Origin: Candidatus Nitrosopelagicus brevis
Lineage (GTDB): Archaea; Thermoproteota; Nitrososphaeria; Nitrososphaerales; Nitrosopumilaceae
Length of the DNA: 64,000 nt
Direction of reading: 5' to 3'
Assembly (NCBI RefSeq): GCF_000812185.1
Contig: NZ_CP007026.1
Coordinates: 1,059,107-1,123,106, forward strand
Position 1 is the stretch's first letter. Each line of letters starts with the position of its first letter. Position numbers and translations under genes: made by a program. The notes beneath the pieces are model-generated. The model saw only the letters and a list, made by a program, of their open reading frames with translations, was not told the origin of the DNA and ran no database searches. Below are positions 43,808 through 49,013 of the stretch, piece by piece.

Positions 43808-46462
43808 TTATCCAGAGGTACAACCACTGTATCCACATTCGATGCAAATGTGACATCCTTCTGTTAAAACAAGAGTGTTTTTACATGTTGGGCATAGTTT
43901 TTCTTCGATTTCAGGCTCTGCTGCAACATGATCTTGGCGAGGAAGTTCTTGTGGAACTACTACTTTTAGTGCTTCGTTGATTTGTTTTAGGATGTATGGG
44001 TTTTTGATATTATTTGTGATATAATCATGTAGATAATCAGTTGCTGTAACCTCAAAAGTTTTTTGAGAATTTTCACCAGTCATATGAAGAACCTGTTTGT
44101 GTCTTGAACCGTCACGATATACCGTAATTCCCTTCAGACCTAACTCATGAGCAAGCAAATATGCTGCTTTAACATCTTCTGCAGAAACATCATTTGGCAT
44201 ATTGATAGTTTTTGCAATTGCATTTCCAATCCAATCTTGCCATACTGCTTGAGCCATCAAATGATCAGTCCAGTGAATATCCATTGCAGTGACAAAGATG
44301 TTTTGAATCCATTCTGGAATTTCATCAATTCCTTTAACTGAGCCATAGTTATCAGCAACTTTGGCTAGTAATTCTTCACTGTAAAGACCGTTTTCTCTTA
44401 AAACCTCTTCAAATATTTTATTTGTATAAAAGAATCTTCCAACAGTAACACGTTTTTCAAATACAAGAGCAAATGTTGGTTCCATTCCATTTGAACAATC
44501 TGCCAACATGGATAATGTTCCAGTTGGTGCAACAGTGGTTGTAAGAACATGTCTAACACCATGTTTCTGGATTTTTGCGATTAAGGCATCCCAATCGTAA
44601 TAATGTCGTTGTTTTGGTTTTTCATAGTATCCAGCAATTGGAATCTTACCTTCAGGATATTCTGTCTTTGAACAAAGTGGGAAAGCACCTCGAGATTGTG
44701 CTAAAGCAACACTTTCTTCCATTGAATAATATGATAATGCTTCAGATAGTTTGCCCATAAACTCATAGCCTTCTTTGGAGTTGTATGGAATTCTTAATTT
44801 GTACAATAGATCTGCAACGCCCATTACACCAAGACCAATTCTTCGAGATTCTTTTGATGCGACATTGATCTCTGGAACTGGATAGTGATTTACGTCAATT
44901 ACATTGTCTAGGAATCGAGTTGTTTTTCTAACAATTTCTTCATATTTTTGCCAATCAAATTCATACTGACCATCTGCGGTTCTTTTTGTAAGATTTGCTA
45001 AGTTAATTGATCCTAAATTACAAGATTCGTAAGGATACAAACTTTGTTCTCCACATGGATTTGTTGCACGAAGTGGACCACCACGTGCTTTTGCAAATAC
45101 ATTATACTTGTTAATTAGATCAAAGAAAATTAAACCAGGTTCTGCACTTTTCCATGCAGATGTTGCAATAAGATCAATTAGATGATGTGCATTAATTTCA
45201 CGTACAGGACTACCATCTCGTGTACTTCGTAATGTGTATGCACCATCTTCACTATCTACTAGTGCATTCCAAAAGTCACCCCAAACACCTACGCTAACAT
45301 TAAAGTTCTCTAAAACGCCAGGCTCGGTTTTGTTAGTAATGAATTTTTCAATATCTGGATGGGATACATCCATAATTCCCATATTTGCACCTCTTCTCTT
45401 TCCTCCCTGTTTGATAACATCAGTTACTGTATTGATAATATTCATGAATGATACAGGTCCAGATGCAACACCAGATGTAGATGCAACAATGTCACCTTCT
45501 TCTCTTAATTCTGAATAGTTTATTCCTACGCCACCACCAGATTTGAAAATTAGTGCTGCATCAGAAGTTGTTTTCATAATTTTTCCCATATCATCAGGCA
45601 TTCCTAATACAAAACATGCAGACAATTGTCCAAGACGTCCACCAGCATTCATCATGGTTGGTGAGTTTGGTAAGAAGACTTGATTTACCATTAGATCATA
45701 ATATTCTGTAATTCTTGCACCATAATCAGTAAATTCTTTTGCTGCAATCTTTGTTAGTAGTTCTTTAAAGCTAATTTTTGCTTGTCCTTTTTGTGCAAGA
45801 TCAATGTATCCGTTTACTAAACCTCTAAAATGATATTGGTTTAGATAATATTCATCAATTTTAAATTTATAATCAAACTGATCTAGTTTTGTCAGATATT
45901 CTTTTGCTTCTTCAATATTTTGTGGTGTGGTTCCTGCTGCATTGAATACAGAAGAATCATGTAAAAGATCACCAATTCCAATTAAAATTGAAACTCTTTC
46001 AAATAATTGAGTTGGAGTTTCGGTAATCTCATTTTTCTTATTTCTAAATAGATATCGAGATGCCAAAACTCTAAGACAATTAAGATCAAATTCTTTTGAG
46101 ACAGGATCAAGAACTTTGGTGTTGAGAACCTTCATCTTCTCATCACGTATTTTTCGTCTCTCGTGTCTATACAATATGTATGACTTTGCGATTTCGCTAT
46201 GTCCTTGTTCTATCAGGGTTGATTCTACCATATCTTGAATATCTTCAACAGATGGTGGGTTTTCAGTGCCAAATCCTTGAGATGATAATTTGTTAAGAAC
46301 TCCATTTGTTAGGCTTTGTGCAAGATCACGATCACCCTCACTAGTTGCAAGTAGTGCTTTATAGATCGCATTTGTAATTTTATCTTGATCAAACTTTGTT
46401 GTATCACCATTTCGCTTTCGAATTTCCGCGAAAGATGACTCTATCTGTGAATTTTCAACCAA
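43808..46462 (-). CDS. nrdJ: Adenosylcobalamin-dependent (class II) ribonucleotide reductase
   Basis: 884-aa enzyme that makes deoxyribonucleotides from ribonucleoside di- or triphosphates with an AdoCbl radical. An N-terminal ATP-cone (KRNGDTTKFDQDKITNAIYK and the following helices, residues about 14-105) provides allosteric control. The catalytic barrel has LSACFVLGMPDDM, GGGVGINYSELRE, ATNPCGEQSLYPYESCNLGS and VAPTGTLSMLADCSNGMEP. A C-terminal cysteine-rich tail (CPTCKNT, CHICIECGYSGC) serves redox relay. The start is TTG at 46462, directly after an in-frame TAA. The cobalamin genes at 17.5-21.7 kb supply its cofactor. Confidence 0.94.
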   Translation of the reverse strand: MVENSQIESSFAEIRKRNGDTTKFDQDKITNAIYKALLATSEGDRDLAQSLTNGVLNKLSSQGFGTENPPSVEDIQDMVESTLIEQGHSEIAKSYILYRHERRKIRDEKMKVLNTKVLDPVSKEFDLNCLRVLASRYLFRNKKNEITETPTQLFERVSILIGIGDLLHDSSVFNAAGTTPQNIEEAKEYLTKLDQFDYKFKIDEYYLNQYHFRGLVNGYIDLAQKGQAKISFKELLTKIAAKEFTDYGARITEYYDLMVNQVFLPNSPTMMNAGGRLGQLSACFVLGMPDDMGKIMKTTSDAALIFKSGGGVGINYSELREEGDIVASTSGVASGPVSFMNIINTVTDVIKQGGKRRGANMGIMDVSHPDIEKFITNKTEPGVLENFNVSVGVWGDFWNALVDSEDGAYTLRSTRDGSPVREINAHHLIDLIATSAWKSAEPGLIFFDLINKYNVFAKARGGPLRATNPCGEQSLYPYESCNLGSINLANLTKRTADGQYEFDWQKYEEIVRKTTRFLDNVIDVNHYPVPEINVASKESRRIGLGVMGVADLLYKLRIPYNSKEGYEFMGKLSEALSYYSMEESVALAQSRGAFPLCSKTEYPEGKIPIAGYYEKPKQRHYYDWDALIAKIQKHGVRHVLTTTVAPTGTLSMLADCSNGMEPTFALVFEKRVTVGRFFYTNKIFEEVLRENGLYSEELLAKVADNYGSVKGIDEIPEWIQNIFVTAMDIHWTDHLMAQAVWQDWIGNAIAKTINMPNDVSAEDVKAAYLLAHELGLKGITVYRDGSRHKQVLHMTGENSQKTFEVTATDYLHDYITNNIKNPYILKQINEALKVVVPQELPRQDHVAAEPEIEEKLCPTCKNTLVLTEGCHICIECGYSGCTSG

Positions 46463-46553
46463 TTATAATCCCCAAGTACATGTTAAACTGATGAGCTAAA
46501 AAACTCTTTGGCAATTATTTTTCTAACAATGGGTAAATAAAATTCACAACGGT

Positions 46554-46567
46554 ACGAAAAACTTCGT
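46554..46567. promoter_or_regulatory. Inverted repeat ACGAA-N4-TTCGT upstream of nrdJ
   Basis: Perfect 5-base arms separated by AAAC lie about 90 bases upstream of the nrdJ TTG. A related palindrome occurs at 46632-46646. This is a candidate operator; regulator unknown. Confidence 0.4.
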
Positions 46568-46631
46568 TTTGCTTTTTTTGATAGTGCTAACCTTGAAAAA
46601 AATAATACTATGTAAGATCAGTAAATGATCG

Positions 46632-46646
46632 AAACGAATTTCGTTT
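46632..46646. promoter_or_regulatory. Palindrome AAACGAA-T-TTCGTTT between the nrdD-like regulator and nrdJ
   Basis: Perfect 7-base arms flank a single T. It shares the ACGAA/TTCGT half-site with the element at 46554. It lies in the 248-base gap between the HTH/ATP-cone gene and nrdJ, which holds no other visible gene. It could be an operator or part of a 3' end structure. Confidence 0.4.
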
Positions 46647-46710: not shown

Positions 46711-48789
46711 TTATTTAATTTGATTTGGCTTGAATGACGAAATTAGTGAAGATGCTTTCTCAATTGCCTTCTTGATGTCAGATTCTTTTGCCTTTGCATC
46801 AAATGGTAATTTAACAAGTACACCACCGTCCAATATCTTTGAGATCTTATTACAATCAGATATTGACTCGCTTTTAGCAGTTAATTTATCAAGTTCGCCA
46901 GGGTTTAATTCTAATCCTTGAGAATAAGAATCTCCTTCTAATACATCCATAATAGAATTTTTACCATACTTTTCACTGTCAAGTGTGACAAATCTTGTTA
47001 GATCGTTGCTGTCCACCATAGAAATAGATACATCAATTCCCATTTCTTGACCTTTTTTATGAGCAATATCAACTGCGGTTTGTAAAACTTTGTTTAAGAT
47101 TTCTTTTCCTTCTTTGTCATCTTTATGTCCAAGTATTTTATGGACTGCTTCTTTTACTCCAACAAAATTTAGAATTATAGAAGAATTATTTTTTTGCATG
47201 AATTGAGTTTTTTCTGCTAAAATTGGATTTACGCCACGTCGTATTAGATCAGATACATCTTTTTTACGAGTTGCCATTGCAGCGATCGCAGGTTTCATTA
47301 ATAATACAAGTCTGGCTCTAAAGTAAGTCTCATCTTTACTAGATTCAAGTGCCAAACGTGGAAGATTGATAGTTAACGATCCAAGTTTAATTGATGGTTC
47401 AGAAGTTTTACTAGAATTTTTAATTGCGTTAGTTGAACATGCGCCTTTTGAGAATGTTACATTACCACCAAGAGACACAGTTTGTGCAAGAATTTCAGAA
47501 TGATCTGCAACTTTTCCTTTTTCATAATCAACAACTAATCCAATTTTTGGTGAAGGTGTGGATTTAACAAAAGTATTGTAAGCAGAGAAAATTGCGTTGA
47601 TTAATTTTTTATCAGCGGAAAGTGGTATTCTAAAGGATAGTACGGTTGGCGATTTATCTAAACTTGTAGAGGTAGATGACATTGTAAAAACATCTACTAA
47701 CATTTTTTCAATATCATCTGTATTTTTTGAGAATTTTCCAAGTACTGCAGGTAGATCATCAACTACTATTTCTTGTGATGATTCTTTAGATATTAAATTA
47801 AATATCATTGGCAATAATTTTTTTAGATCGTCAAGTGTTTTTGCTGCAGAAATTCGTGCAACGCTAGGACATTTTCCCTTTAATTCAATTCCATCTTCTA
47901 TAAGCTCTTTGAGACTTAGAAATATTGTATCAGGAATTAGTGACCACAAACCCAAGTTGGAAATGTGTAATTCTCCAGATAGATGAGAATCTGCTATATC
48001 CTTAGGCAGCGTATTTGTGAGTAAATATTCAGCTAGAGTGTTTTTCCCGCTAGTGAATAGTATATCCTCAACGCCATTTTGGATATTTTCAACGTTTGTG
48101 AACATTTCTTGCACCTCAAATACAGGCATACCAAGTCTTGCGAGTTTATTTCGATATTCTTCATGGCCATGCTCTAATAGAACATTATTTACCATTTCAC
48201 GGATTAATGAGCCAGTAAGATATGTTGTTTGGAATTTATAGATTCTATTTTCTACTTCTTCTGTAATTTTTTGTGATAATTCAAGTGGAAGACTTCCTTC
48301 TCTAACTAGCGATTGAATAATTTTGTCAGAGTTGAATTCTTCTATGGAATCATGTGATGTACGAACATACATTTTTCCACTTTCTATTATGGATCGTTCT
48401 TCAATTTGTCTTGCTAAACTTAGAACTAGTTTTCCAAGATTTGTTATAGTATAACGTCTTTCAGATTTGTTTAATGCTACAAGTGATTGTCTAAGGAGTT
48501 TTCTCAGATGATAAGCAAATTTTCCACTTTCTTTTTTTGATTTAAAGCCAGCTAGAGATTTTAGCTCAGAATATGTCAAAGGGCCTTTAGAGTTTAGGAT
48601 TCTCAAAATATCGATTCTGTTTGGACTAGCCATAACAGAGAAGATCATTCTAACTCGTTTTGATGTAGATTGTAAACGTCCATCACCTTGAGAATCATCA
48701 TCCATGTCAATATCTAGATCGTCGTCATCTGCGGCGACATCGACATCCATATCTAATTCTTCTTCAAAATCTTCTTCCTGCTTCCCCAT
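46711..48789 (-). CDS. HTH-ATP-cone-NrdD-like pseudoenzyme, putative nucleotide-sensing regulator
   Basis: 692-aa protein in four parts. Residues 1-38 are a very acidic tail. Residues about 46-130 form an ArsR-like winged helix (SVMASPNRIDILRIL, LTYSELKSLAGF, FAYHLRKLLRQSL). Residues about 138-222 are an ATP-cone (VRTSHDSIEEFNSDKIIQSL; TGSLIREMVNNVLLEHGHEE). Residues about 225-692 resemble the class III reductase NrdD (SGELHISNLGLW, SLTINLPRLALES, LDGGVLVKLPF). NrdD normally ends with four zinc cysteines and a glycyl-radical loop; here the chain stops before both, and only three cysteines remain (C307, C451, C646). It is therefore likely not a reductase but a dNTP/ATP-responsive regulator, encoded just upstream of nrdJ on the same strand. 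Confidence 0.8.
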   Translation of the reverse strand: MGKQEEDFEEELDMDVDVAADDDDLDIDMDDDSQGDGRLQSTSKRVRMIFSVMASPNRIDILRILNSKGPLTYSELKSLAGFKSKKESGKFAYHLRKLLRQSLVALNKSERRYTITNLGKLVLSLARQIEERSIIESGKMYVRTSHDSIEEFNSDKIIQSLVREGSLPLELSQKITEEVENRIYKFQTTYLTGSLIREMVNNVLLEHGHEEYRNKLARLGMPVFEVQEMFTNVENIQNGVEDILFTSGKNTLAEYLLTNTLPKDIADSHLSGELHISNLGLWSLIPDTIFLSLKELIEDGIELKGKCPSVARISAAKTLDDLKKLLPMIFNLISKESSQEIVVDDLPAVLGKFSKNTDDIEKMLVDVFTMSSTSTSLDKSPTVLSFRIPLSADKKLINAIFSAYNTFVKSTPSPKIGLVVDYEKGKVADHSEILAQTVSLGGNVTFSKGACSTNAIKNSSKTSEPSIKLGSLTINLPRLALESSKDETYFRARLVLLMKPAIAAMATRKKDVSDLIRRGVNPILAEKTQFMQKNNSSIILNFVGVKEAVHKILGHKDDKEGKEILNKVLQTAVDIAHKKGQEMGIDVSISMVDSNDLTRFVTLDSEKYGKNSIMDVLEGDSYSQGLELNPGELDKLTAKSESISDCNKISKILDGGVLVKLPFDAKAKESDIKKAIEKASSLISSFKPNQIK

Positions 48790-48851: not shown

Positions 48852-49013
48852 TTATTTTTCTTCAACATCTAAAGAAAATTCTGATGTTGACAGGGTTTGA
48901 TTGCATGATGGACACTTATTGTTATAATGTTTTAGAACATCCTTTACAGATTTCAGCATTTTCATAGTGGAAATTTTTTCGCCACATTTTCCACAAACAA
49001 TTTCTACAGACAT
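48852..49013 (-). CDS. Small zinc-ribbon protein
   Basis: 53-aa protein, MSVEIVCGKCGEKIST at the start, with two CxxC pairs (CGKC and CPSC) 25 residues apart and an acidic end. It is translated from the minus strand and is too short for usual gene-finding cut-offs. Small two-knuckle proteins of this kind often bind nucleic acids or protein partners. It lies between the DUF35 gene and the HTH/ATP-cone gene, all on the same strand. The pattern and clean start support a real gene. Confidence 0.7.
   Translation of the reverse strand: MSVEIVCGKCGEKISTMKMLKSVKDVLKHYNNKCPSCNQTLSTSEFSLDVEEK

Follow-up and report, generated by a model that had tools for sequence, protein, structure and literature searches.

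A winged helix joined to an inactive class III ribonucleotide reductase as a likely transcription factor for nrdJ in ammonia-oxidising archaea

A protein in which a winged helix and an ATP-cone precede an inactive class III ribonucleotide reductase (NrdD-like) barrel is predicted to be a transcription factor for nrdJ, the gene of the class II (B12-dependent) ribonucleotide reductase (RNR), and, in many lineages, for its own gene; the probability of this reading is put at roughly 0.7. The protein is encoded in a 64,000-nucleotide stretch of Candidatus Nitrosopelagicus brevis (the window), by an open reading frame of 692 amino acids with the exact limits 46711..48789 on the minus strand. The reading as an RNR transcription factor builds on features of the sequences: the domain architecture, the dead active site, a tree consistent with one origin, the near-universal presence, the position of the gene and a shared promoter dyad. 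Ammonia-oxidising archaea are among the most abundant cells on Earth, and almost all genomes of the order to which the marine and soil ammonia oxidisers belong carry the gene. No description was found of the control of DNA precursors in archaea without NrdR, and the family is a direct candidate for this role, with a predicted operator. It offers, moreover, a clear example of an essential enzyme that has probably been recruited to regulate another enzyme of its own pathway. In addition, an anaerobic reductase annotated in these aerobic archaea from this gene would be a misannotation.

The sequence-only reading had recognized a helix-turn-helix (HTH), an ATP-cone and an NrdD barrel in one protein, and Pfam profiles bear this out with matches above their cut-offs. 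The winged helix-turn-helix (48421..48645, minus strand, residues 49-123) is matched by HTH_20 at residues 53-105 (E 9e-8, 32.4 bits against a cut-off of 27) and by DUF7347 at residues 49-123 (E 3e-10, above the curated cut-off). It is followed by the ATP-cone PF03477 (48154..48372, minus strand, residues 140-212; E 2e-10, 41.5 bits against 25.8). The barrel spans about residues 250-683 (46741..48042, minus strand), and the profile search of this part gave NRDD, PF13597, at residues 451-664 (46798-47439, minus strand; E 6e-21, 75.1 bits against 26.2). With the NCBIfam profiles, NrdD (TIGR02487) reaches a sub-threshold 62.9 bits where 326.35 are needed, and NrdR (TIGR00244) does not match the protein. 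Alignment within the Nitrosopumilaceae shows that the winged helix is nearly invariant and the most conserved part, while the remainder varies. The acidic stretch, which had been taken for a gained tail, turned out to be an N-terminal extension (48682..48789, minus strand, residues 1-36) that differs among relatives in sequence and alignments and is not a family feature. The ATP-cone has VRTS at the classical KRDG place; this place also deviates in some true archaeal NrdDs in the same alignment, and nucleotide binding by the protein is plausible. Two ATP-cones only are present in the closed 1.23-Mb assembly of the window genome, one in NrdJ and one in this protein.

The catalytic residues were compared in an alignment with true NrdDs of the same phylum as the reference. 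The finger-loop QCC pair and the first active-site cysteine, which are present in the true NrdDs aligned alongside, have no counterpart in any aligned member of the family. Also, no glycyl-radical motif of the RVTGY type was found in the window protein or in any aligned homologue, and the true NrdDs of the set carry RVTGY or RITGY. The asparagine of INLPR (TINLPR) has been retained, so both the loss of the glycyl-radical end and the survival of TINLPR are as they had been described from the letters. Judged from the aligned residues, reductase catalysis is dead, since the cysteines at both active-site positions and the glycine that carries the radical are lost. The PF13597 match, the NrdD fold and the zinc ribbons of most relatives would fit an active class III reductase or another glycyl-radical enzyme in which the HTH is incidental, but this explanation has almost no probability left: the glycyl motif and both cysteine sites are gone throughout the family, the score lies far under that of NrdD, and the loss of these sites refutes the known radical mechanism. 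An active class III reductase was rejected on the same ground, all catalytic elements being gone.

The structure was predicted from 56 Nitrosopumilaceae sequences, which are close relatives only, with a mean pLDDT of 66.7. The barrel is mostly at pLDDT 70-90, and the HTH and ATP-cone parts are of low confidence because the shallow alignment of close relatives hardly varies over this stretch. The best 35 PDB matches to the model are all class III RNRs, with Thermotoga maritima NrdD (4col, E 2.9e-15) at the top, and the prediction thus agrees with the barrel proposed from the sequence. The zinc cysteines had been described as lost; this is correct for the window protein, but not for the family, in which nearly all relatives keep the C-terminal zinc ribbon (CxxC-CxxC). 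The loss is restricted to the window's own Nitrosopelagicus subclade. Since the ribbon is kept nearly family-wide, its loss is a late, local event, and zinc loss as a part of the turn into a regulator was rejected.

The family has been found in 126 of 130 good genomes of the order. A pseudogene or decaying relic of a single genome was rejected in view of this presence and of the strong conservation of the winged helix. A fusion artefact of assembly was likewise rejected, as the identical architecture occurs in hundreds of independent genomes (at least 567 confirmed stretches). In a sample of the phylum Thermoproteota, 92 of 136 genomes gave matches, some of the weak ones being true NrdDs. In a maximum-likelihood tree, 32 members of the family are split from nine true NrdDs by one 100/100 branch, which is consistent with a single origin. 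A diverged group (L099, L108, L110 and L111) has proteins of about 575-595 amino acids with the HTH present; the two that were aligned have no recognisable VRTS cone motif and most of their NrdD motifs are eroded. This group may represent more advanced decay or another kind of sensor. A typical Nitrosopumilaceae copy was also observed on a contig labelled Phycisphaerales bacterium (L136), most likely by contamination of a metagenome-assembled genome or by mislabelling.

The predicted target nrdJ (43808..46462, minus strand), whose product has its own ATP-cone, lies on the same strand as the putative regulator gene, which is upstream of it at a distance of 248 bp, as the sequence-only reading had noted. 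A link to RNR genes is also found in related genomes: in 54 of 55 Nitrososphaeria loci with enough sequence, the gene is directly upstream of nrdJ and co-oriented with it (L052 is the exception; three more loci end at contig borders and are outside this count). In some distant Thermoproteota a true nrdD lies downstream of it (L076-L080 and L107; G099 and G127 by coordinates). Most distant lineages have unrelated neighbours, for example ATCase/OTCase, NAC and thiolase. Canonical NrdR (TIGR00244) has no match in the window genome or among the listed members of the window's family, and none of these listed members has a true NrdD over the cut-off. The strict genetic linkage, and the fact that NrdJ is a homologous barrel with an ATP-cone of its own, could also point to action mainly at the protein level, in which the dead reductase would bind NrdJ, or elsewhere the true NrdD, as a regulatory partner and the HTH would be secondary. 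This is improbable, given that the winged helix is the best conserved part within the Nitrosopumilaceae, that a dyad is conserved at both promoters and that the gene is away from RNR genes in many distant genomes.

Several other proteins were observed near RNR genes. Directly upstream of the putative regulator gene, at 48852-49013 (minus strand), a protein of 53 amino acids with two CxxC pairs (MSVEIVCGKCGEK...CPSCNQTLSTSEFSLDVEEK) is encoded, and its place there is conserved across the Nitrosopumilaceae. Seven genomes of family f18 (G041, G106, G120, G134, G152, G170 and G188) have a canonical NrdR over the cut-off, adjoining a true nrdD by coordinates; the same genomes hold the dead-NrdD protein elsewhere, so that two RNR-type regulators occur together. 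In two f40 genomes, a short open reading frame with a CxxC redoxin-like start (YTTSGCTRCDMLKKW; L076:7486-7791) lies between the gene and a true nrdD, which suggests a regulator-redoxin-nrdD cluster.

Dyads of 5+5 nucleotides were enumerated, with no prior pattern, in nrdJ promoters from 14 families of the order, and GTNAA-N6-TTNAC was ranked at the top. With spacers of 5-7 it is present in 6 of these 14 promoters (0.32 in shuffles, at most 2 in 300). An independent test with the same spacers found it in 6 of 15 upstream regions (150 bp) of the putative regulator's own gene, against 0.17 in shuffles. Among the other upstream regions it was found in 12 of 332, about eight of the 12 belonging to nrdJ genes. 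Seventy fresh loci were fetched afterwards; many are from one family (f10) and thus not all are independent. They have the dyad in 30 of 50 nrdJ promoters (expected 0.8, maximum 3) and in 29 of 67 upstream regions of the putative regulator gene (expected 0.5, maximum 3). Families f4, f12 and f14 also have it at both promoters; in f7 and f13 it occurs at nrdJ. Of the spacers, 59 are N6 and two are N5, and no other length occurs among those tried (3-9). The closed genome G033 has three strict sites in all, and the putative regulator gene is flanked by two of them; in G214, of the same genus, it is absent at this gene.

In family f8 the dyad is in none of eight nrdJ promoters, though the recognition region is alike, and with one mismatch allowed it is found in 3 of 9 against 3.1 expected, which means that no operator was found there. 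An operator common to the nrdD promoters of distant lineages was rejected, the dyad being present in none of 29 genomes with and 11 without the protein. Therefore, the operator claim is limited to Nitrososphaeria outside f8. These same absences would be expected if the protein were a transcription factor for other genes, for example those of replication or stress, and the dyad belonged to another regulator. This is unlikely, as in many families the dyad is placed exactly at this gene and at nrdJ, other promoters of the same loci rarely match it, and two of the three strict sites in G033 are at the gene. The co-location, the self-promoter sites and the conservation of the winged helix argue for tying the dyad to the protein encoded beside it.

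In the window, the predicted operator of nrdJ is GTGAATTTTATTTAC (46533..46547, minus strand), 85 nt upstream of the nrdJ start, with the spacing GTNAA-N5-TTNAC that is the form found in the Nitrosopumilaceae. The AT-rich window genome holds 19 sites of the N5 form against 56 of a reversed control; this form is not rare there and thus not specific by itself. The operator is adjoined by the genus-conserved palindrome ACGAAGTTTTTCGT (46554..46567, minus strand). At the corresponding place Nitrosopumilus has TATGAANTTCATA, whose arms are constant and whose centre varies, and other matches to TATGAANTTCATA in Nitrosopumilus genomes are mostly within genes. A further palindrome, AACGAAATTCGTT (46633..46645, minus strand), is the sole exact match in the genome to AACGAANTTCGTT, and its core is kept in the genus. 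Palindromes of the GAA..TTC type occur in 66% of 124 promoters, compared with 21% in shuffles. In the area of 46533-46645, Nitrosopumilaceae nrdJ promoters combine the dyad with the family-specific palindromes AACGAANTTCGTT, ACGAAN4TTCGT and TATGAANTTCATA, and a CGKTGTNAA stretch is conserved too; in L004, L014 and L015 the second palindrome has moved by about 5 bp. The case for CGAA/TTCG palindromes alone as the operator was weakened, as they are confined to the Nitrosopumilaceae in the unbiased search, unlike GTNAA-N6-TTNAC. They may be a second, family-specific element.

According to the mechanism proposed here, the family would go back to a single fusion of a winged helix with an ATP-cone-bearing class III reductase (NrdD), which would have lost catalysis afterwards. 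The protein would bind the dyad as a dimer, probably via the old reductase dimer interface. The ATP-cone suggests nucleotide sensing, and together with it the old allosteric site of the barrel could possibly read the nucleotide pool. At plentiful dATP or dNTPs, transcription of nrdJ would be lowered, as by bacterial NrdR. In several deep lineages the self-promoter dyad overlaps a TATA-like stretch (GTTAAATAC..TTGAC) at -17 to -33, and at these promoters simple autorepression by blocking TBP is likely.

Archaeal activators usually bind upstream of the TATA box. In Nitrosopumilaceae nrdJ promoters, the dyad and palindromes precede the nrdJ start by about 85-180 nt and apparently precede the TATA box too, an arrangement no less compatible with activation than with repression. 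It is therefore possible, though considerably less probable than not, that the protein activates nrdJ when dNTPs are scarce. The self-promoter sites on TATA-like stretches fit repression instead, and the functional analogue NrdR is a repressor (PMC9110341). A more far-reaching and tentative form of the main reading is that the whole allosteric machine of the reductase has been kept as a sensor: the cone would read ATP versus dATP, the old specificity site and the dead substrate pocket would read the balance of the other nucleotides, and the full dNTP state would set nrdJ transcription. Ammonia-oxidising archaea would then control RNR chiefly through this protein, which would be an ancient RNR regulator in Thermoproteota.

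Among known systems, bacterial NrdR is the closest in role: it carries an ATP-cone, represses RNR genes and often represses its own gene as well (PMC9110341). The putative regulator shares with it the ATP-cone, the linkage to RNR genes, the predicted twofold promoter sites and the predicted control of RNR genes and itself. However, DNA would be bound by a winged helix and not by an N-terminal zinc ribbon before the ATP-cone; the zinc ribbon of the relatives sits at the C-terminus; the protein is about 700 amino acids long with an entire dead NrdD barrel; and its predicted site is GTNAA-N6-TTNAC and not an NrdR box. The accessible parts of the literature describe NrdR in some archaea, with haloarchaeal examples, and hold nothing like a winged helix with a dead reductase. 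A full-text search that covered few subscription papers also gave no description of the family. On this literature, a fusion of winged helix and dead reductase that acts in the manner of NrdR would be new. The proposal of a reductase-gene regulator made from a dead NrdD independently of NrdR has gained support from the RNR linkage and the dyad at both promoters. Neither of the two findings named beforehand as counter-evidence was made: the aligned homologues have no intact glycyl-radical motif, and the association with reductase genes holds in related genomes.

True NrdD (PF13597, TIGR02487) has in common with the protein the fold, the ATP-cone, INLPR and, in most relatives, the C-terminal zinc ribbon. 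It differs by the finger-loop cysteines, the first active-site cysteine and the glycyl-radical glycine, which the putative regulator lacks along with most of the score needed for NrdD, and by the absence of the extra winged helix at the front. In PurR of Bacillus subtilis and GfcR of haloarchaea, a winged helix or HTH is combined with a phosphoribosyltransferase-type domain. They follow the same design, in that the domain joined to the HTH derives from an enzyme and senses a metabolite from the pathway under control, but the enzyme fold and the pathway are others and no sequence relation is expected. ArsR-like winged-helix regulators (HTH_20, DUF7347) resemble the protein in its DNA-binding domain, which matches them above the cut-off. 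These are usually small sensors of metals or ligands, whereas the predicted sensor part here is an ATP-cone together with a dead reductase.
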